NCBI RefSeq assembly: GCF_900115205.1
Contig: NZ_FOYQ01000002.1
Coordinates: forward strand, 496,001 to 560,000
From: Robiginitalea myxolifaciens
GTDB lineage: Bacteria; Bacteroidota; Bacteroidia; Flavobacteriales; Flavobacteriaceae
Direction of reading: 5' to 3'
Length of the DNA stretch: 64,000 nt
The notes beneath the pieces were generated by a model. That model had not been told where the DNA came from, did not search any database, and worked only from the letters and a program-made list of their open reading frames with translations. The translations under genes were made by a program, and so were the position numbers. The first letter of the stretch is position 1, and every line of letters begins with the position of its first letter. Shown here one piece after another: positions 13,488 through 33,147 of the stretch.

Positions 13488-13494
13488 GGGCTTC

Positions 13495-13651: not shown

Positions 13652-13677
13652 GCTACAATTTTCAGCTACCTTGTAGC
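13652..13677. promoter_or_regulatory. Inverted repeat upstream of capE
   Basis: Perfect 7-base arms GCTACAA (13652-13658) and TTGTAGC (13671-13677), 12-base spacer, 56 bases before capE. There is no T-run, so it is not a terminator; it may be an operator or a leader hairpin. A weak promoter-like TTG (13607-13609) and TTACTTTG (13626-13633) lie just upstream. Confidence 0.35.
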
Positions 13678-13732
13678 ACAGAAAATATAGGAATTGTAAC
13701 CCCAGAACTGAATAAAACCCTTACACTTAACC

Positions 13733-15169: not shown

Positions 15170-15172
15170 GTC

Positions 15173-16369
15173 ATGAAAATAGGAATTACAGGACAACACG
15201 GATTCGTAGGTAGCCATTTGGCCAACACCCTGGCCCTTGATGAATCCCTGGAACTTATTCCTTTTCAGCGGGATTATTTCGAGGATTCCGAAAAACTCCA
15301 GGCATTTGTAGCAGCCTGCGACGCTGTAGTACACCTTGCTGCCATGAACCGGCACCCCGATCCGGAGGTCATCTATGCGACCAATGTAGCACTGGTAGAA
15401 AAGTTAATCGCAGCTTGTAAGGCCGCGGATCACACGCCTCATATCCTATTTGCCTCTTCCACCCAGGAATCTAAGGAGAATCGCTACGGTGAATCCAAGC
15501 TCGCCGGAAAAGAATTATTCAAACAATGGTCTGAGGAAACCAACGGGCGTTGCACTTCCCTGACCATTCCCAACGTATTCGGACCTTTTGGAAAGCCCAA
15601 CTACAATTCTGTGGTGGCCACTTTTTGCCACAAAATCGCCCATGGCGAAGCGGTAGAAGTTCACCAGGACAATGAGATAGGCCTGATTTACGTCAATGAA
15701 CTGGTATGTGAAATTATCGAAGCCATGGGACTTATTCCCAAGGCCTTCCCTTCCCCGATCACGGCAACCGAAACTGCGTCTGAAACCGGGAAGGGCGCTG
15801 AGAATACCTCGGCAAGTTTCCGGACCCATGCGATTGCACCGCGCCATTTCTATAAAGTGACAGAAATCTTAAACCTGCTCCTGCAGTTTCGTTCAGATTA
15901 CATGGAGAACGGGGAATTTCCGGATGTGGAGGACACCTTTACAAGGGCCCTCTTCAATACCTTCCGTTGCTATATCCCGACAGATCATTATCCCGCGCCT
16001 TTTACCTTGCACACGGATCCAAGGGGAAGCTTTGTGGAGATTGCCCGAACAGGCAGCAAAGGCCAGTTTTCCTATTCCACCACCGTTCCCGGCATAACCC
16101 GGGGCAACCATTTTCACACGCGAAAAGCTGAGCGTTTTGCCGTTATCAAGGGCAAAGCACAAATTCAACTCAGGAAAATCGGAACCGACGAGGTTATTAC
16201 CTACGAGCTTAGCGGGGAGGCACCCGCTTACGTAGATATGCCTGTTTGGTACACACACAATATCAGCAATGTCGGACAGGAGGAACTCATTACCCTCTTC
16301 TGGATTAACGAACCGTATAACCCGGAGGATCCCGATACGTTCTTTGTAGACGTTGTTCAAAAAGATTAA
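15173..16369 (+). CDS. capF: UDP-2-acetamido-2,6-dideoxy-hexulose epimerase/reductase (CapF type)
   Basis: Bifunctional second enzyme of UDP-L-FucNAc synthesis. The N-terminal SDR domain has GQHGFVG at residues 7-13 and a shortened YGESKLAGKE catalytic motif near 104-113. The C-terminal cupin (about 285-398) has GNHFHTRKAERFAVIKGKAQIQLR and DMPVWYTHNISNVG, the metal-binding epimerase half. It is about 30 residues longer than S. aureus CapF because of a Ser/Thr/Glu-rich stretch around 190-222 between the domains. Three bases separate it from the cupin gene. Confidence 0.92.
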   Translation: MKIGITGQHGFVGSHLANTLALDESLELIPFQRDYFEDSEKLQAFVAACDAVVHLAAMNRHPDPEVIYATNVALVEKLIAACKAADHTPHILFASSTQESKENRYGESKLAGKELFKQWSEETNGRCTSLTIPNVFGPFGKPNYNSVVATFCHKIAHGEAVEVHQDNEIGLIYVNELVCEIIEAMGLIPKAFPSPITATETASETGKGAENTSASFRTHAIAPRHFYKVTEILNLLLQFRSDYMENGEFPDVEDTFTRALFNTFRCYIPTDHYPAPFTLHTDPRGSFVEIARTGSKGQFSYSTTVPGITRGNHFHTRKAERFAVIKGKAQIQLRKIGTDEVITYELSGEAPAYVDMPVWYTHNISNVGQEELITLFWINEPYNPEDPDTFFVDVVQKD

Positions 16370-16395
16370 CCATACCCAATAAAAGATCAATCATC

Positions 16396-17535
16396 GTGAA
16401 ACCCCTTAAAGTCGTAACGGTAGTAGGAACACGCCCGGAAATCATCCGCCTGGCCTGTGTGCTCAACGCCCTGGATCGGCATACCGCCATTGACCATACC
16501 CTCATTCATACCGGACAGAATTACGATTACGAACTCAACGAAATATTCTTTGAGGACCTGGGCATTAGAAAGCCAGATCATTTCCTGAATGCAGCAGGTG
16601 CCAATGCCACGGAAACCGTGGGTAAAATTCTGATTGCCATTGATCCGCTTCTGGAATCGATCAATCCGGATGCCTTTTTGGTCCTGGGGGATACCAATAG
16701 CTGCCTCTGCGCGATTCCGGCCAAAAAGCGCAAAATACCCGTCTTCCATATGGAAGCTGGAAACCGCTGTTTTGACCAGCGTGTTCCGGAAGAGACCAAC
16801 CGCAAGATTGTGGATCACATTGCCGATATCAATCTCACCTATAGCGATATCGCACGGGAGTACTTACTCCGGGAAGGTTTGCCGCCGGACCGTGTTATAA
16901 AAACGGGAAGTCCGATGTTTGAGGTGCTGGGTCAGTTCCGCAACAAAATCGAAAACTCCGACGTTCTGACGCGTTTGAACCTGGAGGAAGGAAAATACTT
17001 TGTGATATCCAGCCACCGGGAAGAAAATATCAGCAATCCACGGAATTTTGAAGGCCTCATTTCCTCCCTGAACAGTATCGCGGAGAAGTACGGGTATCCG
17101 GTTATCGTATCTACGCATCCGAGAACACGTAACATGCTGAATTCCAAAGATGTTAAGACGCATGAATTAATTCAATTTCTCAAGCCTCTGGGCTTTAGTG
17201 ATTACAACGCTTTGCAGTATCATTCCTTTGCTGTCCTCTCGGATAGCGGAACAATCTCCGAGGAGTCTTCTATCCTGAACTTCCGGGCCCTTAATATCCG
17301 GGAAGCGCACGAGCGTCCTGAGGCCATGGAAGAGGCTTCGGTAATGATGGTTGGCCTTCAGCCGGAACGCATTTTACAGGGGTTGGAAATCCTGACCGCC
17401 CAAAAGCGCAACCCGGAACGTAATTTCCGACAGGTGGCCGATTACAGCATGCCTAATGTGAGTGAAAAAGTAGTTCGCATTATACTTTCGTACACAGACT
17501 ACGTCAATCGGGTGGTCTGGTCCAAAAACTCCTAA
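16396..17535 (+). CDS. capG: UDP-N-acetylglucosamine 2-epimerase type enzyme (CapG/FnlC)
   Basis: Third enzyme of the pathway, giving UDP-N-acetyl-L-fucosamine by C2 epimerisation. The non-hydrolysing WecB-family fold is clear: VVTVVGTRPEIIRLA at 6-20, HTGQNYDYEL near 37-46, GDTNS near 96-100, HMEAGNRCFDQRVPEETNRKIVDH near 117-140, and SDSGTISEESSIL near 282-294. The start is a GTG at 16396, 26 bases after capF. Length (379) is normal. By sequence alone it could be WecB, but placement after capE/capF makes CapG the better call. Confidence 0.92.
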   Translation: MKPLKVVTVVGTRPEIIRLACVLNALDRHTAIDHTLIHTGQNYDYELNEIFFEDLGIRKPDHFLNAAGANATETVGKILIAIDPLLESINPDAFLVLGDTNSCLCAIPAKKRKIPVFHMEAGNRCFDQRVPEETNRKIVDHIADINLTYSDIAREYLLREGLPPDRVIKTGSPMFEVLGQFRNKIENSDVLTRLNLEEGKYFVISSHREENISNPRNFEGLISSLNSIAEKYGYPVIVSTHPRTRNMLNSKDVKTHELIQFLKPLGFSDYNALQYHSFAVLSDSGTISEESSILNFRALNIREAHERPEAMEEASVMMVGLQPERILQGLEILTAQKRNPERNFRQVADYSMPNVSEKVVRIILSYTDYVNRVVWSKNS

Positions 17536-17536
17536 A

Positions 17537-18751
17537 ATGCGCATCCTGTTCCTTGGCCTTGCGGTACCCAACATGAATGAGTACCACAACATGTATACGG
17601 AACTCATGGTAGCATTCCGCGAACAGGGGCACGAGGTAGTGATCGTTGGCCCGGCCTATGATGCACAACATACCGGTGTGCAGCAGGAGGATGGATTTCA
17701 GGTCTTGCGAGTGGCCCAGATAAAGGGTTTTGGCCCGAGATTAATTCAGAAAGGCCTGACTACCGTTTTGATGCCTTACACCTATAAAAGGGCCCTGAAG
17801 CGCAGTGGCATCGATCTGAACTTTGATCTGCTGATCCTCCCTACCCCTCCCATTACCCTTACGGTTGCTGCCCAATGGCTCAAACGAAAGACAGGGCTTA
17901 AAGTTTATCTCGTCCTTCGGGACATTTTTCCGCAAAATGCCGTGGATTTAGGCATGATGCGGCCGGGAAGCCTATTGTTTAAACACTTTCGTCGCACCGA
18001 AAGAGCCCTTTACAAAGTCAGTGACTATATCGGTTGTATGTCGGCAGAGAATATGGCTTATATCCGACGACACAACCCTGAAGTCGATCCGGATAAGCTG
18101 CATTTATTGCCCAATTGGGGGGTTAAAAATGACTTATTACCTCCCGAACAGCTGGATGAAGTAAAAGCCCGCTTTGGTCTAGAGGGCAAATTTGTGGTCC
18201 TTTTTGGGGGAAACATCGGAAAACCACAGAAGATGGAAAATGTACTTGCCCTGGCCGAGGCCTGCTGTGAAATAGACGATATGCTCTTCCTCATTGTGGG
18301 TGGAGGCGTGGAAAAAGAGAGCCTGGATCGCGAGGTTGCTGCAAGAAAGATGAGCAACGTCATGGTCTGGGACTACCTGACCCGAAGTGGGTTTTTTGAA
18401 TTGATGCAGGTTGCAGATGTAGGGTTAATCTCGCTGAGCGAAGATTTTACCATTCCCAATTACCCCTCCAAGACAGTTACCTATTTCAACGCCCGCAAGC
18501 CAGTACTTGCGGCCATTGACCTGAATACGGACTATGGAAGGGATTTGGAAGAAGTAGGAGCAGGTTTCTGGGCGCACGCCCCGGATACGGAGGCGCTGAA
18601 GCAAAAACTCTTACAGCTGTATGAGAATCCTGACCTGCGAGAGACCATGGGCAATAAAGGCTATGCCCATATGGTTGCTGAATTGCAGGTGGGCAGGGCT
18701 TATGAAAAATTGGCCGCATTTACGGCTAGCCAGGGCTTTCCGCTGTCCTAG
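17537..18751 (+). CDS. WbuB-like GT4 glycosyltransferase (probable L-FucNAc transferase)
   Basis: A 404-residue GT-B protein. The segment LVLRDIFPQNAVDLGMMRPGS (about 120-140), followed by a membrane-active helix and MSAENMAYIRRHNP, is characteristic of WbuB/WcaI-like enzymes. The donor half shows VVLFGGNIGKPQKMENVLALAE and DYLTRSGFFELMQVADVGLISLSE. E. coli WbuB is linked to L-FucNAc transfer in O-antigens, and this gene begins 1 base after capG, so it probably uses the UDP-L-FucNAc made here. That substrate is an inference. Confidence 0.85.
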   Translation: MRILFLGLAVPNMNEYHNMYTELMVAFREQGHEVVIVGPAYDAQHTGVQQEDGFQVLRVAQIKGFGPRLIQKGLTTVLMPYTYKRALKRSGIDLNFDLLILPTPPITLTVAAQWLKRKTGLKVYLVLRDIFPQNAVDLGMMRPGSLLFKHFRRTERALYKVSDYIGCMSAENMAYIRRHNPEVDPDKLHLLPNWGVKNDLLPPEQLDEVKARFGLEGKFVVLFGGNIGKPQKMENVLALAEACCEIDDMLFLIVGGGVEKESLDREVAARKMSNVMVWDYLTRSGFFELMQVADVGLISLSEDFTIPNYPSKTVTYFNARKPVLAAIDLNTDYGRDLEEVGAGFWAHAPDTEALKQKLLQLYENPDLRETMGNKGYAHMVAELQVGRAYEKLAAFTASQGFPLS

Positions 18752-18804
18752 CAAGGCCTTTTCACTGGCCTAGTCGCAGGAATCGGACCATTCGTCTAGT
18801 TTAC

Positions 18805-18836
18805 TTGACTCATAGCGCCTTAAATTAATTACTTTG
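18805..18836 (+). promoter_or_regulatory. Candidate promoter for the last glycan block
   Basis: TTG at 18805-18807, a 21-base spacer, then TTACTTTG at 18829-18836 (one mismatch to the Bacteroidota -7 TAnnTTTG). A start about 7 bases on would leave a leader near 20 bases before the ATG at 18863. The 111-base gap has no clear terminator, only a short AGGCC/GGCCT hairpin at 18754-18771. Confidence 0.4.
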
Positions 18837-18862
18837 TTCTCAGCGAATCTTTCGTACCCAAC

Positions 18863-19516
18863 ATGTACAGAAAATACTTCAAACGCCTGATCGACCTGCT
18901 GATATCGGCAAGTATGTTACTCATACTGAGCCCGATACTGCTTCTCATCTCAATACTGCTCTATTTCGCGAATTCGGGGAGCGTATTCTTCCGGCAGGAA
19001 CGTCCGGGAAAGGGCGAGAAAATATTTCGAATTATCAAGTTCAAGACCATGAACGATAAGCGGGATGGCGAAGGTAAGTTGTTACCGGATAGTAAGCGAC
19101 TAACTCCCGTGGGCCGGATAATCCGAAAGACCTCCCTCGATGAGGTTCCGCAACTAATCAATGTATTCAAAGGAGACATGAGCCTGATTGGCCCGCGTCC
19201 ACTATTACCGAAGTACCTGCCTTTCTACACGGAAAAGGAACGATTGAGGCACACCGTACTACCGGGAATTACCGGTTTGGCGCAGGTATCCGGGCGAAAC
19301 CTCCTGGATTGGGATGAGCGACTTCAGAAGGACGCCGAATATGTGGAAAAGCTCAGCTTCCCCCTGGATATCAAAATTATTATACAAACTGTGATCAATG
19401 TGATTCGCTCCAAGGACAACGTTGCGGATCCAAGTTCTATAATGCTGGATTTAGATGAACAAAGAGGGCAAGCTAAAATGGGCCATCCTAACCTCGCGTT
19501 GGGGACGGAACGCTAA
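18863..19516 (+). CDS. Initiating undecaprenyl-phosphate sugar-1-phosphate transferase
   Basis: Starts repeat-unit assembly by moving a sugar-1-phosphate from a UDP-sugar to undecaprenyl phosphate. It is the minimal (PglC-like) form of 217 residues: one N-terminal hydrophobic re-entrant helix (LLISASMLLILSPILLLISIL) and the catalytic domain with FFRQERPGKGEKIFRIIKFKTM, SLDEVPQLINVFKGDMSLIGPRPLL and PGITGLAQVSGR. The Asp-Glu of SLDE is the conserved catalytic pair. UDP-L-FucNAc or one of its precursors could be the substrate. The last 62 bases overlap the next gene in another frame. Confidence 0.93.
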   Translation: MYRKYFKRLIDLLISASMLLILSPILLLISILLYFANSGSVFFRQERPGKGEKIFRIIKFKTMNDKRDGEGKLLPDSKRLTPVGRIIRKTSLDEVPQLINVFKGDMSLIGPRPLLPKYLPFYTEKERLRHTVLPGITGLAQVSGRNLLDWDERLQKDAEYVEKLSFPLDIKIIIQTVINVIRSKDNVADPSSIMLDLDEQRGQAKMGHPNLALGTER

Positions 19517-20054
19517 AGACCTGATCGAAGCTTACGGCGGAGGGCAGCTGGAAGGTTCTGAAATCTCCTTATTAATCTACGATGGGCTCCCCAGTGGGGC
19601 CGCCGAAGCCGCCGAAAGTCAGGGTGTGGAGAATATCCGCGTGCAGTTGGCGGATTTTCCATCGAAGGCGGCATACCAGCATCATTTGACCCAACTATTA
19701 CAAGACAGGGAAATTGATTATGTGCTCCTGCTCAGCTTCAAGTACCTGGTACGTGAAGAGCTGCTGAAGGCATTTCCGGGAAAGATCATCAACATACACC
19801 CATCGCTGTTCCCCAGCTTCCTCAACACCCATAAGGCTATTCAGGAGGCCCTGGACTACGGCGTTAAAATTACCGGAATTACGACCCATGTGATTGATGA
19901 ACAGGTCGATGCAGGCACCATTGTTTGTCAGGAACCCATTCGCCTGGATCCTGGGGAAACTTTTGAGACAGCCTATCCGAAATTCGCTAAAACTGCGCAA
20001 AAGATCCTCAAGGATACTATTGCGGAGATAGAAAAAGCCCAAGGCGGCAGATAA
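19455..20054 (+). CDS. PurN-like formyltransferase of the glycan locus
   Basis: A 199-residue formyltransferase-fold protein. KWAILTSRWGRNAKDLI (8-24) matches the phosphate-binding start of PurN; KIINIHPSLFPSF (110-122) and THVIDEQVDAGTIV (144-157) give the catalytic residues Asn113, His115 and Asp152, all present. True PurN belongs with purine genes; here it sits among glycan genes, 7 bases before a glycosyltransferase, so a sugar-amine acceptor with N10-formyl-tetrahydrofolate is likely. It starts 62 bases inside the preceding gene, and the first beta-strand begins at residue 8, so a later start would cut into the fold. Confidence 0.8.
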   Translation: MNKEGKLKWAILTSRWGRNAKDLIEAYGGGQLEGSEISLLIYDGLPSGAAEAAESQGVENIRVQLADFPSKAAYQHHLTQLLQDREIDYVLLLSFKYLVREELLKAFPGKIINIHPSLFPSFLNTHKAIQEALDYGVKITGITTHVIDEQVDAGTIVCQEPIRLDPGETFETAYPKFAKTAQKILKDTIAEIEKAQGGR

Positions 20055-20061
20055 CGTCCCT

Positions 20062-21177
20062 ATGAGAGTCCTCTTACTCTTAAGTCGTATTGAAAAAAGC
20101 GGCGTAGCGTTACATACCATTGACCTGATCAAAGGTTTGAAAGCAGGCGGGCACAGCGTATCGCTGATTTCGGGTGGGAATACCGACCCGGACAATCCTT
20201 ATCTGGCCAATATATATGCGGAAGCGGCAGCTTGCCTCGATTCGTCCCGGGTTTTTATTACTCCTAAGGGCATACTTCCCATAAAAATTGTCCAGGGAGT
20301 CCTGGCTACTGTGCAAATTCTCTGGTGGCTGTTGCGAACCCCTCACGATGTATTACACGTGCAGTCCCCCTACCTCACTTTTCTGCCTTGGTTATTGGGA
20401 AAACGCTTTGTGAGCACGGTGCACAATGTTCAGTTGCGTCCAAAGATCAATTATAAGAACGCTACGGCGCTTATTGCCATTAGCGAGGAGTCCAGGAATT
20501 TTGCCATTGAAACCCTTGGTGCCAAGCCTGCGTCTGTGCAGGTTGTATGCCATGGAATCCCATCCCGATTTGCTGAAAACAGCCCGGAATCACTTTTGTC
20601 CGGACTACGGAAACGCTACGGACTCCGTGATGATCGCTTGCTCATAGGTTTTGTGGGACGGATTACCCGCGAAAAGGGCCTGGATGTCCTTTTGGGATCT
20701 GCCGCCAGCCTAAAGCCGCAGCTACGGGACCATATTCAACTGGTTTTTCTGGGAGACTACTACTCGGAGGCCGATCAGAAATGGCTGGAAGACTTACTGC
20801 CTGAGGCACGCGAAACCCTGGAAATTATCCAGGTTCCTTTTCAGGATCCTAAACCGTTCTATGAATTATTCGACGTCTTTGTGCTGCCGTCCCTATCAGA
20901 GGCCTTCGGGCTGGTCTGTGTGGAAGCCATGATGAGCGGTTGCTGCACAATACGCACCGATACCAATGGTGCCCTAGATCAAATTACCGATGGGGTCGAT
21001 GGCTTTATTTATCCCAGAGCAGATCAGGGCGCCCTGCAATCCATTTTATCGCAGGTATTGGGCAATGCATCCCTTAGGGATGACGTTAGTAGCAAGGGGA
21101 AAGACAGGGCCCTTAACCATTTCACCCTGGAAGCAATGACTGAAAAGACCCTGAAGGTCTATCAAAAGTTAATGTAA
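20062..21177 (+). CDS. GT4-family glycosyltransferase
   Basis: A 371-residue GT-B enzyme. Acceptor half: MRVLLLLSRIEKSGVALHTIDLIKGL, then HDVLHVQSPY and FVSTVHNVQ. Donor half: LIGFVGRITREKGLDVLLGSA (about 193-213), VFLGDYYSEADQKWLEDLL and FVLPSLSEAFGLVCVEAMMSGC (about 271-292), the classical EX7E motif with E278 and E286 by rough count. It adds one sugar of the repeat unit; donor unknown. Seven bases follow the formyltransferase and one base is shared with the next gene (TAATG). Confidence 0.9.
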   Translation: MRVLLLLSRIEKSGVALHTIDLIKGLKAGGHSVSLISGGNTDPDNPYLANIYAEAAACLDSSRVFITPKGILPIKIVQGVLATVQILWWLLRTPHDVLHVQSPYLTFLPWLLGKRFVSTVHNVQLRPKINYKNATALIAISEESRNFAIETLGAKPASVQVVCHGIPSRFAENSPESLLSGLRKRYGLRDDRLLIGFVGRITREKGLDVLLGSAASLKPQLRDHIQLVFLGDYYSEADQKWLEDLLPEARETLEIIQVPFQDPKPFYELFDVFVLPSLSEAFGLVCVEAMMSGCCTIRTDTNGALDQITDGVDGFIYPRADQGALQSILSQVLGNASLRDDVSSKGKDRALNHFTLEAMTEKTLKVYQKLM

Positions 21178-22214
21178 TGTCGCAAACGAGCATTCGTTTA
21201 CATACTGAAAAACAAGCATGGGAGAATCTCCTGGGGCGTGTGGACACCTATGATTTTTACCACACTTTTGACTATCACCAGATCTCCAGAAATACTGGGG
21301 AATCCCCTGTTTTACTGGAATATTCGGCTGGGGATGCCCTGATACTCCTTCCGCTGCTCCTTCGGGATATTCCAGACAGCGATCTGAAGGACGCCACTTC
21401 TGTATACGGCTACGCCGGACCACTTTCCAACCTGGGAGAATCCCCTGAGGAATCGGTGGTTGCCACATACAAAGTAACCCTGGAGCACTACTTGCTGGAA
21501 ATGGGTGTCGTATCCATTTTCACCCGGATGAATCCGTTCATCCCCGGACAAAACGAGCTGTTGGAAGGCCTGGGAACCCTGCGTCCACTGGGCGATTTGG
21601 TAAATATCGACCTGACTCGCGACCTCGCGGCTTCCAGAGCGGCCTACCGTCGGGATACCAAGAGCCGGGTAAACAAAGCGCGTCGTAATTTCAAGGTTAA
21701 ACTGGCCGAAAGCCGGGAAGATGTCCTTAACTTCATCGAAGTGTATCTGATGACCATGGAAAAGCTCGATGCCGATGACAGCTATTTCTTTGACCAGGAG
21801 TATTTTTTCAATTTCCTGGATTGTGACGGTTTTCAAACAGATATCCTGCTGGCCTTAGATCTGGAAACAGATGCCGTGGCAGCCGGGTCCATGTTTGTGA
21901 AATCGAATGATATCATTCAGTATCACCTCTCAGGTACGCACCCCGATCATATGCGATTGGCACCGTCCCGCTTACTTATTGACGAGATGCGGGTACGGGG
22001 AACAGAGGAAGGATTCCGGTTTTTCAATTTAGGGGGAGGCTACCAGTGTAAGGCCGATGCCCTCTTCGATTTTAAATCATCATTTTCCGACCAGACCTAT
22101 CCCTGGATAATCTGGCGTTATATCGTAAACCCCGCGGAATACGAGAAGTTAACCCAGGCTTCAGGCGTGGGCGAAACACAATTTTTCCCGGCTTACCGGG
22201 CTCCTAAATCATAA
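21177..22214 (+). CDS. FemAB/GNAT-type acyltransferase
   Basis: A 345-residue protein of the FemAB-like (BioF2/GNAT) group. The N-terminal part has FYHTFDYHQISRNTGESPVLLEY; the C-terminal half has RAAYRRDTKSRVNKARRNF, AGSMFVKSNDIIQYHLSGT and FFNLGGGYQCKADALFDFKSSF, a motif typical of these transferases. Members attach aminoacyl or acyl groups to amino sugars or peptides. In this locus it may acylate the free amino group of a deacetylated or amino sugar. It begins at the stop of the GT4 gene (TAATG), indicating coupled translation. Acyl donor (tRNA or CoA) cannot be told from sequence. Confidence 0.75.
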   Translation: MSQTSIRLHTEKQAWENLLGRVDTYDFYHTFDYHQISRNTGESPVLLEYSAGDALILLPLLLRDIPDSDLKDATSVYGYAGPLSNLGESPEESVVATYKVTLEHYLLEMGVVSIFTRMNPFIPGQNELLEGLGTLRPLGDLVNIDLTRDLAASRAAYRRDTKSRVNKARRNFKVKLAESREDVLNFIEVYLMTMEKLDADDSYFFDQEYFFNFLDCDGFQTDILLALDLETDAVAAGSMFVKSNDIIQYHLSGTHPDHMRLAPSRLLIDEMRVRGTEEGFRFFNLGGGYQCKADALFDFKSSFSDQTYPWIIWRYIVNPAEYEKLTQASGVGETQFFPAYRAPKS

Positions 22215-22223
22215 GCAACTAAG

Positions 22224-23075
22224 ATGTTAGTATTTATAGTACCCATAAAAAGCGAACAGGTAAGTACCAACTGGAAGGTTTTTTCAGTTCTGGTAGACCG
22301 AACCCTGCGCTCCATTTGTAACCAAACCTCTGAGGATTTCCGGGTAATAGCGGTTTGCCATGAAATTCCACCCGTCGATTTTACCCACGACAAATTGGAA
22401 TTCCTTCAGGTAGATTTCGATCCGCCAACAGACGATATGATCGCCCGCACCACCCCTCAGGAGGCAGATCCTAAACACTATCGCAATGCCGCTAAGGAGG
22501 CCGACAAGGCTCGCAAGATCAAGGCAGGGATGGAGCGATCCAAGGCTTATGATCCGGATTACATCATGGTTGTTGACGCCGATGATTGTATCCACAATGG
22601 CCTGGCGCAATTCGCCTCAGACGCCAAAGACAAACCTGCCGGCTGGTTTATTAAAAAAGGGTATATCTATAACGAAGGCAGTAACCTGATCTTTCTCAAT
22701 AAAAACACCTTTAACGTGCTTTGCGGAACCTGTCTGATCGTTCGTGCCGATCTGGCGCCTCAATTGGTCAACGAGAAAGGAGAATTACCGGTGTTCAGCC
22801 ATGAGTGGGAAGCACTGCCCACAGGGGAGTCGCTGAAGCCCCTGCCTTTTGCAGGTGCCATATACAGCATTGGGAACACAGAAAATTACTGCAGTACCCC
22901 GGAAGCTGTCAAGAAAATGAATTCCTATCCCATTTTCAGCAAGTCCTTTGTTGAAAATGTCGTTCGGAAAATGGCCAAGTACCGACTAAAACTGGTGACC
23001 CCGGGCTTCCGGGAACGCTTTGGACTGGAACGCCTGGAACTGGAAGCTGCCGTAGCCCAAACACAGGAAGCCTGA
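22224..23075 (+). CDS. GT-A fold glycosyltransferase
   Basis: A 283-residue protein with a GT-A start (MLVFIVPIKS), a basic helix AAKEADKARKIKAGMERSK, and the metal-binding motif VVDADD at 116-121. This arrangement is seen in small bacterial transferases of unknown specificity. It lies 9 bases after the FemAB-like gene and 4 bases before the formyltransferase. There is no membrane segment. It is one of at least six glycosyltransferases in the locus. Donor unknown. Confidence 0.75.
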   Translation: MLVFIVPIKSEQVSTNWKVFSVLVDRTLRSICNQTSEDFRVIAVCHEIPPVDFTHDKLEFLQVDFDPPTDDMIARTTPQEADPKHYRNAAKEADKARKIKAGMERSKAYDPDYIMVVDADDCIHNGLAQFASDAKDKPAGWFIKKGYIYNEGSNLIFLNKNTFNVLCGTCLIVRADLAPQLVNEKGELPVFSHEWEALPTGESLKPLPFAGAIYSIGNTENYCSTPEAVKKMNSYPIFSKSFVENVVRKMAKYRLKLVTPGFRERFGLERLELEAAVAQTQEA

Positions 23076-23079
23076 GCTT

Positions 23080-24060
23080 ATGTCGGGGCAGCAACATAAG
23101 GCAAAAATCTGGTGCATCGGCGCCAATCTGGAATCCTTTCACAGTTTAAAATACCTGGTAGACCAGGGTTGTGAGATTACCGGCTTGATAACCCTGCCCA
23201 GCGGCCCCAATCCACAGGTTTCCGATTATTACGATTTACATCCTTTTTGCGAGCAACACGGAATTGAGACCCTGGACAGCACGAATGTGAATAGCCCGGA
23301 GACCCTGGAATCACTTGGGGCAAAGGAGGCTGATTATTTGTTTACCCTCGGATGGAGCCAAATATTCAGGGAGGATTTCATCCGTTGTTTTAGCGCATTT
23401 ATAGTAGGGACACACCCCAGTAAGCTACCCTATGGGCGTGGTCGTGCCCCCCTGCCCTGGACTATCCTGGAAGGGTTGGAAGCATCCGCCGTAAGCTTTT
23501 TTAAAATTGACACGGGTGTAGATACCGGGATGCTGCTATTCCAACGCGATTTTAATATCCCCACCCGCGCCTATGTTGGCGAACTCTATGACATCGTTGC
23601 CCGGGAACTATCCCTGGGCTTCCTTGAAATATACAAGCAGATCAGTGAAGGGGTGCCCTTTGATTTTCTGCAACAATCCGAGGAAGGAGCTACTGTACGC
23701 GGTAAAAGGACTCCGGCCGATGGCCTGTTGAGCTTCGATCGCAGCGCCGCCGATATGGATGCCCTGATTCGGGCTGTTTCCAAGCCCTATCCCGGTGCCT
23801 ATACCTACTACAAGGATGAAAAAGTCATCTTCTGGGAGGTGCGGGAAGACGAGGAAGGAAAATTTTCGGGGACCCGAGGGCAAATACTAACCCGAAAGGG
23901 TGGGGAAATCCTGGTTCAATTTGCCGATGGAAACCTTTGGTTGGGTGGAGCGACCCTGGCCAACGGGGAAATTCCCGAACCCAAATTCTTTAAAATCGGG
24001 GACAAACTGGGCTATAGTGTCCAGGACGAAATTTACAAGCTAAAAAAAGGAATAAAGTGA
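23080..24060 (+). CDS. Fmt/ArnA-like sugar formyltransferase homologue
   Basis: A 326-residue protein with an N-terminal formyltransferase fold and a C-terminal OB-like domain (from about 205). Fold signatures: IVGTHPSKLPYGRGRAPLPWTI (108-129) and FFKIDTGVDTGMLLFQ (140-155). His112 and Asp148 of the catalytic triad are present, but the Asn expected two residues before the His is Gly110. RGRAPL is shared with ArnA and sugar N-formyltransferases. It overlaps the PIG-L deacetylase by 4 bases (GTGA). A deacetylase plus formyltransferase would swap N-acetyl for N-formyl on a sugar. Methionyl-tRNA formyltransferase is unlikely in this setting. Confidence 0.82.
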   Translation: MSGQQHKAKIWCIGANLESFHSLKYLVDQGCEITGLITLPSGPNPQVSDYYDLHPFCEQHGIETLDSTNVNSPETLESLGAKEADYLFTLGWSQIFREDFIRCFSAFIVGTHPSKLPYGRGRAPLPWTILEGLEASAVSFFKIDTGVDTGMLLFQRDFNIPTRAYVGELYDIVARELSLGFLEIYKQISEGVPFDFLQQSEEGATVRGKRTPADGLLSFDRSAADMDALIRAVSKPYPGAYTYYKDEKVIFWEVREDEEGKFSGTRGQILTRKGGEILVQFADGNLWLGGATLANGEIPEPKFFKIGDKLGYSVQDEIYKLKKGIK

Positions 24061-24737
24061 TTGATTCTTTTCAGAAAATACTGGTAATCGCAGCCCACCC
24101 GGACGACGAAGTCCTGGGCGTAGGCGGAACGATACCGCTTTTGGCCCAGGCAGGTAAAACTGTGGATGTGCTGATTTTTACCGATGGCAGTAGCACCCAA
24201 TACGCCGGGGATGATAAGATCCTCGAACATAAGTTCAAGGAGGCTGAGCTTGCCATGAAAACTATGGGAGCTAATCTCCTGCCGAGGATGACTTTTCCTG
24301 ACATGCGCCTGGACACGGTGGCCCATGTCGATAAAAACTCCGCCCTTGGTGAAATTATCCAAAAAGGGCAGTACGACACGGTTTTTGTCCAGGATCACAC
24401 CGATGTTAACCGCGACCATAAGGAGATTTATGACAGTGCCGTGGTGGCCTGTCGGCCAGTGCCGGGTCAATGTGTACGTTATTTACTGAGTTACTACGTG
24501 AATTCGTCCACCGAATGGGGAAATATCCTTGGTGGCCAGTGGTTTAGCCCAAATGTTTTCGTTGATATTTCCGAGACCCTGGAGATAAAACTGAAGGCTA
24601 TGGAAGCTTATCAGACCGAACTTCGGGATCATCCCCATCCACGCAGTCTGGAAGGATTACGTACGGCCGCTGCGTATTTCGGCAATACTGTTGGCTATCA
24701 ATATGCAGAGCCATTCCGGCTGATCTTCGCGCGATAA
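24057..24737 (+). CDS. PIG-L (LmbE) family zinc deacetylase
   Basis: A 226-residue PIG-L/LmbE protein. AHPDDE at residues 13-18 binds zinc and carries the catalytic Asp; the second motif QDHTDVNRDHKEIY near 122-135 gives the third zinc ligand region. These enzymes remove N-acetyl from GlcNAc-containing substrates. The GTG start lies in the last bases of the formyltransferase gene (GTGA overlap). The gene is followed by a strong terminator, so it ends the glycan locus. BshB of bacillithiol synthesis is in this family and bshA is 9 kb away, but the operon points to glycan deacetylation. Confidence 0.85.
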   Translation: MIDSFQKILVIAAHPDDEVLGVGGTIPLLAQAGKTVDVLIFTDGSSTQYAGDDKILEHKFKEAELAMKTMGANLLPRMTFPDMRLDTVAHVDKNSALGEIIQKGQYDTVFVQDHTDVNRDHKEIYDSAVVACRPVPGQCVRYLLSYYVNSSTEWGNILGGQWFSPNVFVDISETLEIKLKAMEAYQTELRDHPHPRSLEGLRTAAAYFGNTVGYQYAEPFRLIFAR

Positions 24738-26248: not shown

Positions 26249-27505
26249 TTAGACGATCATCCCTGCTGCCACAGTCTCATTGGTGGCATCATCGACAAGT
26301 ACCAGGCTTCCTGTGGTGCGGTTCTCGCGATAAACGTCTACCATCAGGGGCTTGGTCGTACGAATACGCACCTTACAGATATCGTTCATCTGGAGTTCAC
26401 CATCTGCAGGCACCCGGTTCAGGGTCTGGATATCGATCTTATGAACGATTTCCTTGATCATCGCCTTTTGGTCGTTGGTAGTGTGGAGGATGCTATATTT
26501 CGCCCGGGGCTGAGACGGCTTGTTATTCAGCCAGCACAACATCACTTCAAGATCCTGGGTTGCTTCTGGCTGGTTATTGGTTCTCACAATCATATCCCCG
26601 CGGCTGATATCAATATCATCCTCCAGGGTTATGGAAACGGACATCGGAGCAAATGCTTCCTCCAGGCTGCCATTAGGACCGTCGATAGCTTTGATCACGG
26701 AAGAGAATCCGGAAGGAAGTACACTTACTTTGTCGCCAGGTCGAAAAACCCCACTGGAGATACGTCCGGCATAACCCCGGTAGTCCAGGTGCTCCTTACT
26801 TTGTGGTCGCAGGACGGTCTGTACCGGGAAACGCGCGTCTACCTTATTGATGTCACTGCTGATGTGCATGGTTTCCAGGGTATGCAGCAATGGGGCACCC
26901 TGGTACCAGGACATATTTTCGGAACGGTTCACCACATTGTCGCCATTCAGGGCGCTAATGGGAATATATCGGATATCCGAGATTAGCATTTTCGAAGCAA
27001 ACTCTTCAAAGTCCTCTGTAATCGCACGGAACGACTCCTGGGCATAGTCTACCAGATCCATCTTGTTCACGCATACAATTACGTGAGGGATATTCAAAAG
27101 AGAAGCGATAAAAGCATGCCGCTTGGTTTGTTCAATGACTCCATGACGCGCATCGACCAGGATCAGGGCCGCGTTGGCCGTTGATGCCCCGGTAACCATA
27201 TTTCGGGTATATTGGATATGCCCGGGGGTATCCGCAATAATAAATTTACGTCTCGGGGTGGTGAAATAGCGGTAGGCCACATCGATGGTGATCCCCTGCT
27301 CCCGTTCGTCCCGAAGACCGTCTGTAAACAGGGCAAGGTCTACCCCTTCGTGTCCTTTCTGCTTACTGGTGTTTTCAACCGCTTCTAATTGGTCTTCGAA
27401 AATCGATTTAGAATCGTACAAAAGCCTTCCTATGAGCGTACTCTTTCCGTCGTCCACGCTTCCCGCTGTGGTAAATCGAAGTAATTGACTGTTGTCTATT
27501 TTCAT
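26249..27505 (-). CDS. cysN: Sulfate adenylyltransferase, GTPase subunit
   Basis: Large subunit of ATP sulfurylase; GTP hydrolysis drives adenylylsulfate (APS) formation with CysD. The G1 P-loop is GSVDDGKST (15-23), G3 is DTPGH near 93-97, and G4 is NKMD near 148-151. EF-Tu-like domains 2 and 3 follow. At 418 residues it is shorter than E. coli CysN, mainly at the ends, which is common in Bacteroidota. It is the last gene of the PAPS operon, but is separated from cysD by the SGNH and MBOAT genes. No clear terminator follows. Confidence 0.96.
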   Translation of the reverse strand: MKIDNSQLLRFTTAGSVDDGKSTLIGRLLYDSKSIFEDQLEAVENTSKQKGHEGVDLALFTDGLRDEREQGITIDVAYRYFTTPRRKFIIADTPGHIQYTRNMVTGASTANAALILVDARHGVIEQTKRHAFIASLLNIPHVIVCVNKMDLVDYAQESFRAITEDFEEFASKMLISDIRYIPISALNGDNVVNRSENMSWYQGAPLLHTLETMHISSDINKVDARFPVQTVLRPQSKEHLDYRGYAGRISSGVFRPGDKVSVLPSGFSSVIKAIDGPNGSLEEAFAPMSVSITLEDDIDISRGDMIVRTNNQPEATQDLEVMLCWLNNKPSQPRAKYSILHTTNDQKAMIKEIVHKIDIQTLNRVPADGELQMNDICKVRIRTTKPLMVDVYRENRTTGSLVLVDDATNETVAAGMIV

Positions 27506-27511: not shown

Positions 27512-28942
27512 CTATTCAAAAGGCCCATTAATGCTGAAAACCGGGCCTTTACCTTTTTGTATTAATTCTATTTTACTGATGCTCTTTAACGGTACGTAGT
27601 TCCTTTGCAAGAGCAGAATTCGATCCCCTTGTCGCTTCGCAATTCCCTGGATCTCAAAATTTTCTTCAAAACTACCCAATTTTTTAGCCCTTTCGGAAAG
27701 ATAGAAGCGATCTTTCTTGTTGTATGTGAAACGCACCCTGTAATTATCACGTTGAAAAGCCTGATAAGAGATATCAAAGAACACGGCGATATGATCATCG
27801 CTCTCTTTTAATATCCCAATGGAATTCAGTTTCCGATTAGGATCTATCTGGTGATTCGGCTCGTTATAATAATCGCAAGCCGATAGCGAGCCAGAATTGA
27901 GCACGGTTTGAGAGTACCGGTTAATGTATTGTTCATAGGTATCACTACCCTCACGCCCGGCTAGTTCGAACGAATTTTCAATTTGAGCGGCCAACCAGTT
28001 ACTTGCTTTCTTTGCACCTTTGAAATTTAAATGACCCTTATTCGCAAAATCATTAAGGCGTAAGTTTAAGCTGCTAAGCGAATCCGTAAAATTCAAATAG
28101 CTAACTTCCTCCTGCTCCAAAAAACTGGCCAGTTCCGAGGACTTGCCATTCAGAATCTGAAAATAGGGGGCTGTAACTACCAGTAGCTTAATATTATGCT
28201 GCTTACATAACCTTATGAACTCAGATAAATCGCGTTTAGCCGCTGGAGGGAGTGTTATTTCATAAGGTGGAATCTTCGGGGCAATCAATTCGATTTTGCC
28301 GTCATTGCTTATCTCTGATCGCAACGAACCATCTAAATTATTTGGCTTCAACTCCCGCTGGAAACCAACGAAACCATTTTTGTAATAACTATTTACGTTG
28401 GTAAAGGCATATGAGGCGTTAAAGGGATTGACCTCCGTCCAGTTATTGTGGTTTCTGACTACCGGAAATGTCGAAGCAACTAAATTCTTCCTGCCAAAGA
28501 TGTTTCCCAGGTTCTCAATAGCTTGCAAATCCAGGGATGAATTATCATAGACCTGGTACTGGCCTAGTTTCTGGTTGTCGTTTTTATATCCCTCCAGGTT
28601 CATATGATTTACCTCGAGAACCAATAATTCCGGCAATTTTTTGCGGGATAAGACTTCCTTCTCAAATAAATATAGCGACGTCTCCAGCTTTTGCGCTCCA
28701 CTTGCCAATACGAAAGATTTCGTTTTGAATTTGCGGTCAAAAATGAGCGGGAAGAATGTGTTGTATGCATGGGAATTCCCCATAAAGAGGATATCGACAG
28801 AGTCATTGCTTCGGTGGATTTCCCGGAAGTCTTCCATGCGCTTTACATGGATGTTTTTATCCTTGAAATACCAGTTACCAAGCAAAAGTGCCGCTACAAA
28901 AAGCGCTCCGAGTACTGCTATTTTAAGGATCAAGCGCTGCAT
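27512..28942 (-). CDS. SGNH/AlgJ-like O-acetylation protein
   Basis: A membrane-anchored, periplasmic SGNH-hydrolase-like protein of 476 residues. A single N-terminal helix (about 5-22, LILKIAVLGALFVAALLLG) is followed by ILFMGNSHAY (51-60) with nucleophile Ser57, and LNDFANKGHLNFKGA (about 296-310) with Asp298 and His304. Proteins of this AlgJ/AlgX/PatB type take acetyl groups delivered by an MBOAT partner and place them on polysaccharide. The chosen ATG at 28942 shares one base with the stop of the MBOAT gene; an open frame extends 93 bases further but crosses that gene and lacks the signal anchor. By eye this pair is richer in A+T than the cys genes around it. Confidence 0.82.
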   Translation of the reverse strand: MQRLILKIAVLGALFVAALLLGNWYFKDKNIHVKRMEDFREIHRSNDSVDILFMGNSHAYNTFFPLIFDRKFKTKSFVLASGAQKLETSLYLFEKEVLSRKKLPELLVLEVNHMNLEGYKNDNQKLGQYQVYDNSSLDLQAIENLGNIFGRKNLVASTFPVVRNHNNWTEVNPFNASYAFTNVNSYYKNGFVGFQRELKPNNLDGSLRSEISNDGKIELIAPKIPPYEITLPPAAKRDLSEFIRLCKQHNIKLLVVTAPYFQILNGKSSELASFLEQEEVSYLNFTDSLSSLNLRLNDFANKGHLNFKGAKKASNWLAAQIENSFELAGREGSDTYEQYINRYSQTVLNSGSLSACDYYNEPNHQIDPNRKLNSIGILKESDDHIAVFFDISYQAFQRDNYRVRFTYNKKDRFYLSERAKKLGSFEENFEIQGIAKRQGDRILLLQRNYVPLKSISKIELIQKGKGPVFSINGPFE

Positions 28943-30414
28943 TAGAATTGGAAGTATATAAATTCTGGGGGCTGTCCTGAACCATACATGCCAAAAACGA
29001 CAAGGATCAGCAACAAAATTACATAAGCCGACCATCTGAAAATAACGGACTGCTTGTTAAAAAATGTCATGAACCCAAATTTAAGGTCGTAAACCTCATA
29101 AGCCAGTAAGACGACGATAAACAAAAAGAGGACCCTCAGATCTACTGCGGTAACCCCAAGTCCCATAGCCAGGGCAGGATCAAAAAGCAGTGCATAGTTA
29201 TTATATCCCAATCCATTTATGATATCCATTGCGTCTGCCAGGGAATTTGCCCTGAAGAATATCCAGGCAAAACACACCGCTATAAATGTGAGCAGTGTAA
29301 AGAACAACGAATTTGAGGTCGTTTGTTTATGGAATCCCAATCTGGGCAGGACCGAACTCTTTACAGTAGTGGATGCCTTCTCCAAAACAATAAGTAACCC
29401 GTGAACCGCTCCCCAAATAATAAAGGTCATCGCAGCCCCATGCCAAAGGCCACTAATCAGGAAAACGGCAAACAGGTTAAAGTACGTGCGCTGTTTACCC
29501 TTTCTGCTTCCTCCCAGCGGAATGTATACATAATCCCGGAACCAGGTGGAAAGGGAAATGTGCCATCGCCGCCAGAACTCTGTTATGGATTTCGAGAAGT
29601 AGGGAGCATTGAAGTTCTTCATCAAATCAAACCCCATAGTCCTCGCCGTACCAATCGCAATATCCGAGTATCCTGAAAAATCACAATAAATCTGGAAGGC
29701 GAATAGCAGGGTTGCTATGGTATAGTCAACGCCAGCGTGATCATGGACATTATTGAAAACATTATTCACCACTACCGCTGCCCGGTCGGCAATGACCATC
29801 TTTTTAAAAAGGCCAAAAGCGATCAGCAATAGCCCGGAGCGCACAAGTTTATATTCAAACTTATGGGTTCTGAAAAATTGAGGGAGGAGATGCGACGCCC
29901 GCTCGATGGGGCCTGCGACCAACTGTGGGAAAAAGGCAACGAAAGTAAAGAAGGCAAGCCAGTCTTTGGTTGGAGCTATCTTCTTTCTGTAGATATCAAT
30001 GGTATAACTCAGGGTCTGGAAGGTATAGAAACTAATTCCCACCGGAAGAATAACATTGAGTCGGGCTACATCGAATTCGCTTCCGAAAAGTCGGAACGTA
30101 TCGACGAATGTTTCAATAAAGAAATTCGCGTACTTGAAATAAACCAGGAAGCCAAGATTTACGAGAAGGCTAATACCCAGATACTGCTTGCGCTTCCTCT
30201 CTTCTTTAGCCTTGTGGAGCCTTTGACCAACCCAAAAGTCTACCAGGGAACTTATCATAATAAGCAGGAGGAACCGCCAATCCCACCAGCCATAAAACAA
30301 ATAGCTCGCAAGCAATAAAAGAACATTCCTGGGAGTCTTATGTGCGGCTGTTAGCCAGTACAGCACAAATACAATCGGGAAAAAGATTGCAAACTCAAAG
30401 GAATTGAACAGCAA
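28942..30414 (-). CDS. MBOAT-family O-acyltransferase (AlgI/DltB-like)
   Basis: A 490-residue polytopic membrane protein. It starts MLFNSFEFAIFFPIVFVLYWL, the usual AlgI-type lead, followed by NVLLLLASYLFYGWWDWRF. The MBOAT core has FWRRWHISLSTWFRDYVYIPLGG and LISGLWHGAAMTFIIWGAVHG with the conserved catalytic His of WHG. It moves acyl groups, usually acetyl, across the inner membrane to its SGNH partner, whose gene overlaps by 1 base. It starts 17 bases after cysD in an otherwise standard sulfate-activation operon. Target is probably the glycan of the neighbouring locus. Confidence 0.93.
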   Translation of the reverse strand: MLFNSFEFAIFFPIVFVLYWLTAAHKTPRNVLLLLASYLFYGWWDWRFLLLIMISSLVDFWVGQRLHKAKEERKRKQYLGISLLVNLGFLVYFKYANFFIETFVDTFRLFGSEFDVARLNVILPVGISFYTFQTLSYTIDIYRKKIAPTKDWLAFFTFVAFFPQLVAGPIERASHLLPQFFRTHKFEYKLVRSGLLLIAFGLFKKMVIADRAAVVVNNVFNNVHDHAGVDYTIATLLFAFQIYCDFSGYSDIAIGTARTMGFDLMKNFNAPYFSKSITEFWRRWHISLSTWFRDYVYIPLGGSRKGKQRTYFNLFAVFLISGLWHGAAMTFIIWGAVHGLLIVLEKASTTVKSSVLPRLGFHKQTTSNSLFFTLLTFIAVCFAWIFFRANSLADAMDIINGLGYNNYALLFDPALAMGLGVTAVDLRVLFLFIVVLLAYEVYDLKFGFMTFFNKQSVIFRWSAYVILLLILVVFGMYGSGQPPEFIYFQF

Positions 30415-30431: not shown

Positions 30432-31337
30432 CTAAAAGTATCCTTGCTTTTTACGGTCTTCCATGGCCGTTTCGCTGCGCTTGTCGTCCGAGCGATTCCC
30501 ACGTTCGGTCTGGCGCATTGCAGCGACTTCCTGAACAATTTTCTCCAGGGTATCGGCATCGGATTCAATCCCACCGGTAATGGTAATGTCTCCGAGAGTT
30601 CGGAAACGGATTTTCTTTTTGTGGATCGTTTCACCTTCGTCCATAATCAAATATTCCGATTTTGGGATCCAGGAATTGTTACGCCAAACAACTTCCCTTT
30701 CGTGAGCGAAGTAAAGGGATGGGATTTCGATATTTTCCCTTAGGATATAGTTCCAAACATCCATTTCCGTCCAGTTACTGATGGGGAAAACACGGAAATG
30801 CTCTCCTTCGAAGTGTTTGCCATTAAAGAGGTTCCAAAGTTCCGGGCGCTGGTTTTTCGGATCCCATTGCCCGAAATCATCGCGATGGCTAAAGAATCGC
30901 TCTTTGGCCCGCGCTTTTTCTTCGTCGCGGCGTCCTCCTCCGATGGCACAATCCACTTTATTATCTTCGATAGCATCCAACAGGGTAGTAATCTGCAGGG
31001 CGTTCCTTGTAGCATTTTTACCCCTTTCTTCGGCCACCCGGCCTTTGTCAATAGATTCCTGTACCGACCCCACAATCAGGCGTGCGCCCAGATTTTCGAT
31101 CAGGGAATCCCTGAAGGCAATAGTTTCGGGGAAATTATGGCCGGTATCCACGTGCATCAGGGCGAAGGGAATTCGGGCCGGATAAAAGGCCTTTTTGGCC
31201 AAATGGGTTACGACAATAGAATCTTTTCCACCTGAGAATAAAATGACGGGGTTCTGGAACTGCGCCCACACTTCGCGCAGGACATAAATCGCTTCTGATT
31301 CCAGTTCGTCCAGGTAATTCAGATAATACTTACTCAT
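30432..31337 (-). CDS. cysD: Sulfate adenylyltransferase, ATP-binding subunit
   Basis: Small subunit of ATP sulfurylase, PAPS-reductase-like ATP pyrophosphatase fold. The PP-loop FSGGKDSIVVTHLAKKAF lies at about 34-51. FPISNWTEMDVWNYI and the basic C-terminal DKRSETAMEDRKKQGYF are typical of CysD. Length is 301, normal for the family. It overlaps cysC by 8 bases. Its usual partner cysN does not follow directly; the MBOAT and SGNH genes lie between. Confidence 0.97.
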   Translation of the reverse strand: MSKYYLNYLDELESEAIYVLREVWAQFQNPVILFSGGKDSIVVTHLAKKAFYPARIPFALMHVDTGHNFPETIAFRDSLIENLGARLIVGSVQESIDKGRVAEERGKNATRNALQITTLLDAIEDNKVDCAIGGGRRDEEKARAKERFFSHRDDFGQWDPKNQRPELWNLFNGKHFEGEHFRVFPISNWTEMDVWNYILRENIEIPSLYFAHEREVVWRNNSWIPKSEYLIMDEGETIHKKKIRFRTLGDITITGGIESDADTLEKIVQEVAAMRQTERGNRSDDKRSETAMEDRKKQGYF

Positions 31338-31929
31338 TGTTGAGTTTTATTTGTTGTAATAATACGTTATAAATGGCTTCTACAGATTCCGCAATGCTTT
31401 GTTCGTGAGTAACTTCCACGCTGGGATGCTCAGGAGCCTCATAAGGGGCAGATACCCCGGTCATATTTTTAATTTCACCCGCCCTGGCTTTGGCGTATAA
31501 TCCTTTGACGTCCCGGGCTTCACAAACCTCAAGGCTTGTATTGACAAACACTTCGCAGTATCGCTCCGCGCCTACCAGATCCCGCATGGCCTCCCGATCG
31601 GCCCGGTAGGGCGCAATAAAGGCAGCGAGCGTGATGAGGCCAGCATCGACAAATAACTTCCCGAGCTCCCCGATTCTACGAATATTCTCTGAGCGATCTT
31701 CCGGGCTAAAACTAAGGTTATTGTTAATCCCCTTACGGACATTATCCCCATCCAGAACATAGGTCCTGAGCCCTTTCTCGAACAAGTACTGCTCTAAGGC
31801 ATTGGCTATTGTGGATTTACCGGATCCGGACAGCCCTGTCAATAAAACAAAGATAGCCTTATTCCCCTGAGCTTTCTCCCGGTCTTCTCTGGTAACCTTA
31901 TAATCGTGTGGGATAATATTCTCACTCAT
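31330..31929 (-). CDS. cysC: Adenylylsulfate kinase
   Basis: Phosphorylates APS to PAPS, the sulfate donor. The P-loop GLSGSGKST sits at about residues 31-39, LDGDNVRKGINNNLSFSPEDRSENIRR is the APS-binding region, and FVNTSLEVCEARDVKGLYAKARAG the lid segment. I chose the ATG at 31929 (199 residues), which overlaps the DUF2061 gene by 8 bases; the open frame extends 36 bases upstream. PAPS rather than cysteine may be the main product, because no PAPS reductase (cysH) is present in the window. Confidence 0.96.
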   Translation of the reverse strand: MSENIIPHDYKVTREDREKAQGNKAIFVLLTGLSGSGKSTIANALEQYLFEKGLRTYVLDGDNVRKGINNNLSFSPEDRSENIRRIGELGKLFVDAGLITLAAFIAPYRADREAMRDLVGAERYCEVFVNTSLEVCEARDVKGLYAKARAGEIKNMTGVSAPYEAPEHPSVEVTHEQSIAESVEAIYNVLLQQIKLNNE

Positions 31930-32347
31930 GGGTCTGTGATTTTCTTCTTCTGGTTCCCAGGCCAAAGTTAGTACTATACCAGGCCCTTTCGTGCAGGTAG
32001 TATAGGAGCATTTTGCTGATCACCTCTACCATGCCTATTTTGAGACCGGTAAAGGGGTTCCCGGAGATAATCCAGGAAAGTATAATGGTATCCAGGGTTC
32101 CAATAGCCCGCCAGGAAAGCGTTTTGAGGATGTGTCGCTTGCGGCTCTCCGGCATGCGTACCCGGAACCAAAGGCGTTCGTGAAAAAAGTACAGCACCAT
32201 TTTACTCAATACCTCTGCAAGGCCAATTTTGAGGCCTGTCAACGGGTTTCCGGTAATGATCCAGGAGATCAGGATAGTATCCAGCGTCCCGACGACCCGC
32301 CAGGTAATGGTTTTGGCAATATGTCTCTTTACGGTTTCGTCGGACAT
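31922..32347 (-). CDS. Tandem DUF2061 membrane protein
   Basis: A 141-residue protein made of two copies of the DUF2061 unit (about 7-63 and 67-124). Each has (R)HI(A/L)KT(I/L)(T/S)WR(V/A)(V/I)GTLDT, then ISWII(T/S)GNP(L/F)TGLKIG and ending HER(L/A)W. Two hydrophobic stretches per copy suggest a small inner-membrane protein. DUF2061 often occurs with sulfate-assimilation genes, but its role is unknown. Start and stop overlap cysQ and cysC, so all three are probably co-translated. Confidence 0.88.
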   Translation of the reverse strand: MSDETVKRHIAKTITWRVVGTLDTILISWIITGNPLTGLKIGLAEVLSKMVLYFFHERLWFRVRMPESRKRHILKTLSWRAIGTLDTIILSWIISGNPFTGLKIGMVEVISKMLLYYLHERAWYSTNFGLGTRRRKSQTHE

Positions 32348-33147
32348 CAGCTACGAACCAGAAAATAAGGGTTCAACAAATCTTCCTTGTTGTATTTCAG
32401 CGGTTGTTGGTCGCGCTGTGAGATTACCTGCAGCCCAACGGCTTCGCAAATCGCACTTCCGGCCGCAGTGTCCCACTCCATGGTAGGAGCGTATCTTGGA
32501 TACACATCTGCTTTACCTTCTGCTACCAGGCAAAATTTAAGGGAGCTTCCTTTGCTCACAATTTCTATATCCTGGTATTTGGTTTTCATTTCGGCTATGA
32601 AGTTTTCCGTATCGGCATTCATATGGGAACGGCTGCCTACTACCCGCAAAAGTGCATTATCCGTACCGGATGGGTTAATGCGATCGCCTTCCTGGAATAA
32701 CTCCACTTTGAGGCTATGGTCCTCGTCCAGTACCGTTTTAAAGGCCTTGCCGCTGGAGACTACTGCGTAATACAGTTCTCGGGTAACAGGGACGTAAATC
32801 ACCCCAAATTCGGGTTTACCTTGTTTGCACCAGGCTATATTTACCGTAAACTCTCCATTTCTCTTGATGAATTCCTTGGTTCCATCCAGCGGATCAACAA
32901 TCCAGCAGCTTTCCCAATCCTTACGGTCGGCATAGTCGATCTGCTTATTTTCCTCACTGATAATCGGGAAATCAGTGCGTTCCAGGAATGAATTAATCAC
33001 TGCATTGGAAGCGCGATCTGCATTGGTAAGTGGGGAGTCGTCCGTCTTGGAAGTGATTTCAATCGCTTCGCTGGAATCGTAGATTTCAAGAATTGCTTTA
33101 CCCGCGAGTACGGCTGCTTCGAGGGCTAAGTTGTAAGCGTCAGTCAT
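32347..33147 (-). CDS. cysQ: 3'(2'),5'-bisphosphate nucleotidase
   Basis: Removes the 3'-phosphate of PAP, the by-product of sulfotransferases and PAPS reductase, to give AMP. Inositol-monophosphatase fold: SEE near 59-61, WIVDPLDGTKEFIKRNGEFTVNIA near 78-101 with the metal-binding DPLDGT, and the C-terminal metal motif MEWDTAAGSAICEAVG near 228-243. It heads the PAPS operon. The 174-base upstream gap holds a near-consensus -7 (GACTTTTG, complement 33238-33245) and AT-rich leader. Its linkage to a sulfotransferase locus makes sense because PAP inhibits sulfotransferases. Confidence 0.96.
   Translation of the reverse strand: MTDAYNLALEAAVLAGKAILEIYDSSEAIEITSKTDDSPLTNADRASNAVINSFLERTDFPIISEENKQIDYADRKDWESCWIVDPLDGTKEFIKRNGEFTVNIAWCKQGKPEFGVIYVPVTRELYYAVVSSGKAFKTVLDEDHSLKVELFQEGDRINPSGTDNALLRVVGSRSHMNADTENFIAEMKTKYQDIEIVSKGSSLKFCLVAEGKADVYPRYAPTMEWDTAAGSAICEAVGLQVISQRDQQPLKYNKEDLLNPYFLVRS

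Follow-up and report, generated by a model that had tools for sequence, protein, structure and literature searches.

An MBOAT-SGNH acyltransferase pair recurrently placed between cysD and cysN in Flavobacteriaceae

The window, a 64,000-nucleotide stretch of the 3.2 Mb genome of Robiginitalea myxolifaciens (G000:C2:496001-560000), carries a set of sulfate-activation genes in which cysD and cysN are separated by two genes of acyltransferase type (Table 1). Open reading frames and Pfam and NCBIfam matches give the minus-strand order cysQ, DUF2061, cysC, cysD, MBOAT, SGNH, cysN, confirming the split and the single orientation described in an earlier sequence-only reading of this DNA. The overlaps or short gaps of that description measure 17 bp from the end of cysD to the beginning of the MBOAT gene, a single base where the ATG of the SGNH gene overlaps the stop of the MBOAT gene, and 6 bp between the SGNH stop and the cysN ATG. 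Both subunits of the CysDN ATP sulfurylase are complete, each scoring above its cut-off (TIGR02039 and TIGR02034). The start of the SGNH gene is most likely the ATG at 28942 rather than 29035, because the frame from 29035 overruns the C-terminus of the MBOAT; for cysC, the more probable start is an ATG inside the frame, at about 31929. A promoter search found no match to a flavobacterial-type promoter within the gene set, and sigma-70-type matches (17 against 11.5 in shuffles) were little above background and were set aside. From the spacing and the lack of an internal flavobacterial-type promoter we infer that the genes from cysQ to cysN form one operon with a single transcript. The DUF2061 membrane protein (31922-32347) is a near-constant member of the PAPS operon throughout the family. 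In one genus relative (G006, locus L007) the cysC match is absent between DUF2061 and cysD, and cysD and cysN are intact.

Table 1. Features of the window, with strand and supporting match.
Feature	Position	Strand	Support
Polysaccharide biosynthesis cluster	2443..24737	+	Pfam
Sulfotransferase (Sulfotransfer_2), in the adjacent polysaccharide cluster	9303..9941	+	PF03567, E=1.8e-10
cysN, ATP sulfurylase GTPase subunit	26249..27505	-	TIGR02034, 554.7 bits (cut-off 336.1)
SGNH-fold acyltransferase/esterase partner, 476 aa	27512..28942	-	invariant motif residues; AlphaFold/Foldseek
MBOAT O-acyltransferase, 490 aa, TTG start, C-terminal FIYFQF	28942..30414	-	PF03062, E=1e-32
cysD, ATP sulfurylase small subunit	30432..31337	-	TIGR02039, above cut-off
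cysC, APS kinase	31330..31965	-	TIGR00455; PF01583
Tandem DUF2061 membrane protein	31922..32347	-	PF09834, two stretches
cysQ, 3'(2'),5'-bisphosphate nucleotidase	32347..33147	-	TIGR01331, above cut-off

The first of the two intervening genes encodes an MBOAT whose His325, within a WHG motif, is invariant among the relatives compared by alignment. Its C-terminus fits the FXYXXF acyl-shuttle motif, which is intact in 19 of 20 compared MBOATs, the remaining one being truncated by an assembly gap. Identity to this protein is about 57-69% among relatives, with an outlier of 51% in G006. In PatA, the tyrosine of such a tail is acetylated and the acyl group is then handed to the SGNH partner PatB (PMC12148441). 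The present pair resembles PatA-PatB in the catalytic histidine and C-terminal tail of the MBOAT and in a separate SGNH partner, here predicted to be tethered to the inner membrane, and differs in the extra C-terminal beta-sandwich of the SGNH protein and in its position inside a sulfate-activation operon. Among NCBIfam profiles and solved structures the MBOAT is nearest to DltB, of the DltB-DltD system of teichoic acid D-alanylation. However, it scores well under the cut-off of the DltB model (TIGR04091, 151.9 bits against 375), DltA, DltC and DltX were not seen near the locus, and the shuttle tail is here carried by the MBOAT itself.

The second gene encodes a protein with an N-terminal membrane helix, an SGNH domain at about residues 45-340 and a C-terminal beta-sandwich at about 372-472, and it has no Pfam or NCBIfam match. 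Residues G55, S57, H304 and N306 are invariant in an alignment of 15 SGNH relatives; the block V Asp varies. An AlphaFold model (pLDDT 75) finds its best Foldseek matches in GDSL/acylhydrolase structures (E about 1e-4, probability 1.0), which supports an SGNH alpha/beta fold. No match at the sequence level was found to PatB or to any solved SGNH transferase, and a scan of the genome contigs that used just the SGNH protein as query yielded no relatives. The C-terminal domain, modelled alone, adopts a beta-sandwich of generic type that matches nothing in the PDB significantly, and a carbohydrate-binding role is not claimed for it. Taken with PF03062, His325 and the FIYFQF tail, the motifs and fold of the partner support the earlier assignment of the two genes as an O-acylation pair. 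The description of the SGNH gene as AlgJ-like did not survive a closer inspection. The AlgI-AlgJ/AlgX system of alginate acetylation shares with this pair an AlgI-type MBOAT and the logic of polysaccharide acetylation, but AlgJ and AlgX are circularly permuted, with the histidine (DxH) before the GTSYS-type serine (PMC4148444), whereas here the catalytic Ser57 (GNSH, block I) precedes His304 (HLN, block V) in the canonical order; an AlgJ-like identity is thereby ruled out. The ALGX model is touched by only one of the 15 SGNH relatives (E 0.0095). Identity of the SGNH protein to most relatives in the main alignment is 18-24%, the best pairwise value being 30.5%, to a protein of G399. Since the SGNH partner is divergent and the MBOAT near-constant, the former may be the specificity part of the module. 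In a polysaccharide locus of G150 (L091 5605-8477), two tandem SGNH genes occur with one MBOAT, and a single MBOAT may there serve two SGNH partners.

The pair is absent from the same site in close relatives. In all six genus relatives with the same cysD type (G001, G002, G004, G005, G006 and G007) cysN directly follows cysD. The order in G005 (OmpA, cysN, cysD, cysC, DUF2061, cysQ, bshA and a gene of 975 aa) matches that of the window without the insert, and so provides an empty-site comparison. In a tree of CysD and CysN the present genome is nested in the genus, nearest to G001 and G005, neither of which has the insert. The empty site and the nested position place the insertion of the pair after the split of this genome from its genus relatives, as the sequence-only reading had proposed on other grounds. 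No convincing repeats were found at the insert junctions as a footprint of transposition, and patchwise identity along cysD and cysN showed no donor-like recombination stretch. Those other grounds were chiefly base composition. The SGNH gene does have the lowest GC of the 47 genes in the window (41.4%, z -2.6), although at third positions its z is only -1.6, and the MBOAT gene lies at 44.2% (z -1.5 among the same genes). The dip is modest, however, and nearby polysaccharide genes are comparably low (41.9% at 9303-9941, 43.3% at 9954-11150 and 43.6% at 2443-3651). The figure of 53% GC given earlier for cysQ was unrepresentative, the whole gene being at 47.3%. As the main evidence for insertion, composition makes a weak argument beside equally low polysaccharide genes and by itself would be no proof.

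Coordinates of cysD and cysN were then compared across 399 sampled family genomes, with both genes present in 141 among the matches listed; the counts that follow describe the closer cysDN type, i.e. the best-scoring matches. The two genes lie within 100 bp of each other in 113 of these 141, confirming that they are normally adjacent. Among the other genomes listed, the gap is 101-300 bp in four, 301-1000 bp in 18, 1.4 kb in one and 2.3-3.0 kb in five. Each of the five largest gaps contains an MBOAT gene and, after it, an SGNH gene, and they belong to five genera (this genome, G145, G377, G378 and G226, the copy in G226 holding an assembly gap of Ns). The arrangement had been treated as a single oddity and is instead recurrent; the gene-order comparison suggested at that time thus shows the split to be unusual but shared with four other genera. 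In three further genomes (G416, G077 and G277) an MBOAT-SGNH pair stands just after cysN. G416 has a lone SGNH gene in its 1.4 kb cysD-cysN gap in addition to the pair directly after cysN, and is an intermediate or rearranged form. The two SGNH genes that flank its cysN are divergent (L065 6178-7674 and 10409-11839). In G277 an in-frame stop interrupts the MBOAT gene adjoining cysN (L067 5325-6794), reflecting either a pseudogene or an assembly error.

Many of the mid-sized gaps are filled by small ORFs of two other kinds. Such ORFs were seen at the junction in about ten other family genomes, as four-helix-bundle 23S_rRNA_IVP proteins (L069, L070, L074, L077, L080, L099) or as PDDEXK_3 proteins (L071, L078, L098, L100), both kinds including examples that match their Pfam models. 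Because these ORFs have no evident glycan role, the cysD-cysN junction may simply tolerate insertions in general.

The setting of the operon points to polysaccharide sulfation. The cluster at 2443..24737 contains GDP-mannose dehydratase and epimerase genes, a flippase, a Wzy/ligase, glycosyltransferases, UDP-sugar epimerases and a priming sugar transferase. Together, cysC, cysD, cysN, cysQ, the PF03567 gene and this cluster make up a predicted sulfated-polysaccharide locus spread over about 24 kb, in which the nearest sulfotransferase lies 19.6 kb from the pair on the opposite strand, beyond OmpA and part of the cluster. In other carriers of the insert, the operon is often found between RmlABCD-type genes and a flippase with a sulfotransferase. 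Of the 399 family genomes, 17 carry the MBOAT subfamily, defined at E<1e-150, and in eight it is located at cysDN. Eight of the 17 subfamily loci have a sulfotransferase within 10 kb, against 0.4 expected at random positions, an expectation that takes both genes as placed anywhere, while both favour polysaccharide loci. Sulfotransferases and MBOAT-SGNH pairs are both common in such loci, therefore the linkage could reflect a shared address only. Near MBOATs of other subfamilies, cysC, cysD, cysN or DUF2061 were found at none of the 80 loci listed (MBOATs of 42-54% identity among the matches listed, with flanks of up to 6 kb that were full for 54 of the 80). The cysD of this genome is its sole copy and, since cysH and sulfite reductase are present elsewhere in the genome, it probably also feeds sulfate assimilation. 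G005 carries the operon, and cysH and sulfite reductase were not detected there, which fits a role in PAPS supply and sulfation. A chemical precedent is the capsule of Vibrio sp. KMM 8419, in which rhamnose bears both a 3-sulfate and a 4-O-acetyl group and cysNDC lies in the polysaccharide cluster with sulfotransferases (PMC11641403). Acylation genes between cysD and cysN were not reported for the Vibrio locus.

The same facts could be read as those of a site that readily accepts insertions within a strongly expressed operon, from which the pair would merely borrow a promoter while acting on another envelope polymer, be it another polysaccharide, peptidoglycan or a glycoprotein glycan. The unrelated IVP and PDDEXK_3 ORFs at this junction and the distance to the sulfotransferase both suit such a reading. 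We nevertheless consider it unlikely, though a serious contender, because every one of the large inserts is the same module, the pair also stands directly after cysN in three more genomes, and MBOAT loci of other kinds are without cys genes.

The insert state, mapped on the CysD-CysN tree, forces three changes. Holding the five carriers as one clade is rejected for CysD-CysN (p-AU 5e-115), and a single clade of their MBOATs is likewise rejected (p-AU 0.009 and 0.002, with named Flavobacteriaceae MBOAT relatives as outgroup); the MBOAT of this genome does not group with those of the other carriers. The genomes in the CysD-CysN tree were chosen partly for their gaps, and adding more insert-free genomes would therefore only add losses under a single origin. 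The simplest reading of these trees is at least three separate captures: one in this genome, one in G226 and one in the group of G145, G377 and G378. Recurrence in five genera could also be expected if the interrupted order were ancestral in the family and then lost in most lineages, but the forced changes, the rejected single origin, the separate MBOAT of this genome and the strong predominance of family genomes with adjacent cysD and cysN leave that disfavoured and highly improbable.

We therefore return to an acyl-transfer module for an exported polysaccharide that has been repeatedly recruited to the sulfate-activation operon for co-expression on the same glycan, which we regard as probable. 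At the inner membrane the MBOAT would load the tyrosine of its FIYFQF tail with an acyl group, acetyl from acetyl-CoA being the likeliest. The SGNH protein, tethered to the membrane on its periplasmic side, would then pass this group through its catalytic serine to the exported polysaccharide. That the SGNH protein is instead an O-acyl esterase, trimming acyl groups so that the pair would adjust acylation instead of adding it, is very doubtful, for although most proteins of the SGNH fold are esterases and the Foldseek matches are GDSL acylhydrolases, the pairing with a shuttle-tailed MBOAT is strict, and characterised systems load their SGNH partner in this way (PMC12148441). The acyl-transfer module was gained after the split from the genus relatives and landed between cysD and cysN, which would bring synthesis of PAPS, the sulfate donor, and acylation of the polymer into a single operon. 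The same junction took such modules independently in at least three lineages, mostly in polysaccharide loci with sulfotransferases, and co-expression of sulfation and O-acylation on the same exported glycan is therefore the probable advantage. The sequence-only reading had already proposed that the two modifications fall on one glycan. The recurrence in sulfotransferase-bearing clusters lends weight to this as the likeliest explanation of the gene order, and it rests on linkage rather than on chemistry. A stronger form, in which PAPS supply and acylation of the same glycan are transcriptionally and translationally locked in a joint sulfation-acetylation unit, with the SGNH gene swapped for each polymer and the MBOAT conserved, is tentative and falls somewhat short of an even chance.

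The enzymology of MBOAT-SGNH pairs is already known, and as an acyltransferase pair this one is ordinary; what is unusual is its location, at which such pairs have arrived more than once. A description of such a pair between cysD and cysN was not found in the literature searched, where the recurrent gene order appears to be undescribed. What had seemed a one-off oddity becomes a testable rule, that one and the same modification module has separated a conserved pair of enzyme genes on at least three independent occasions. The SGNH proteins (most 18-24% identical), with their near-constant MBOATs (about 57-69%), form a natural series for studying acylation specificity. If both modifications are carried on one polymer, gene order could predict marine exopolysaccharides that are both sulfated and acetylated.
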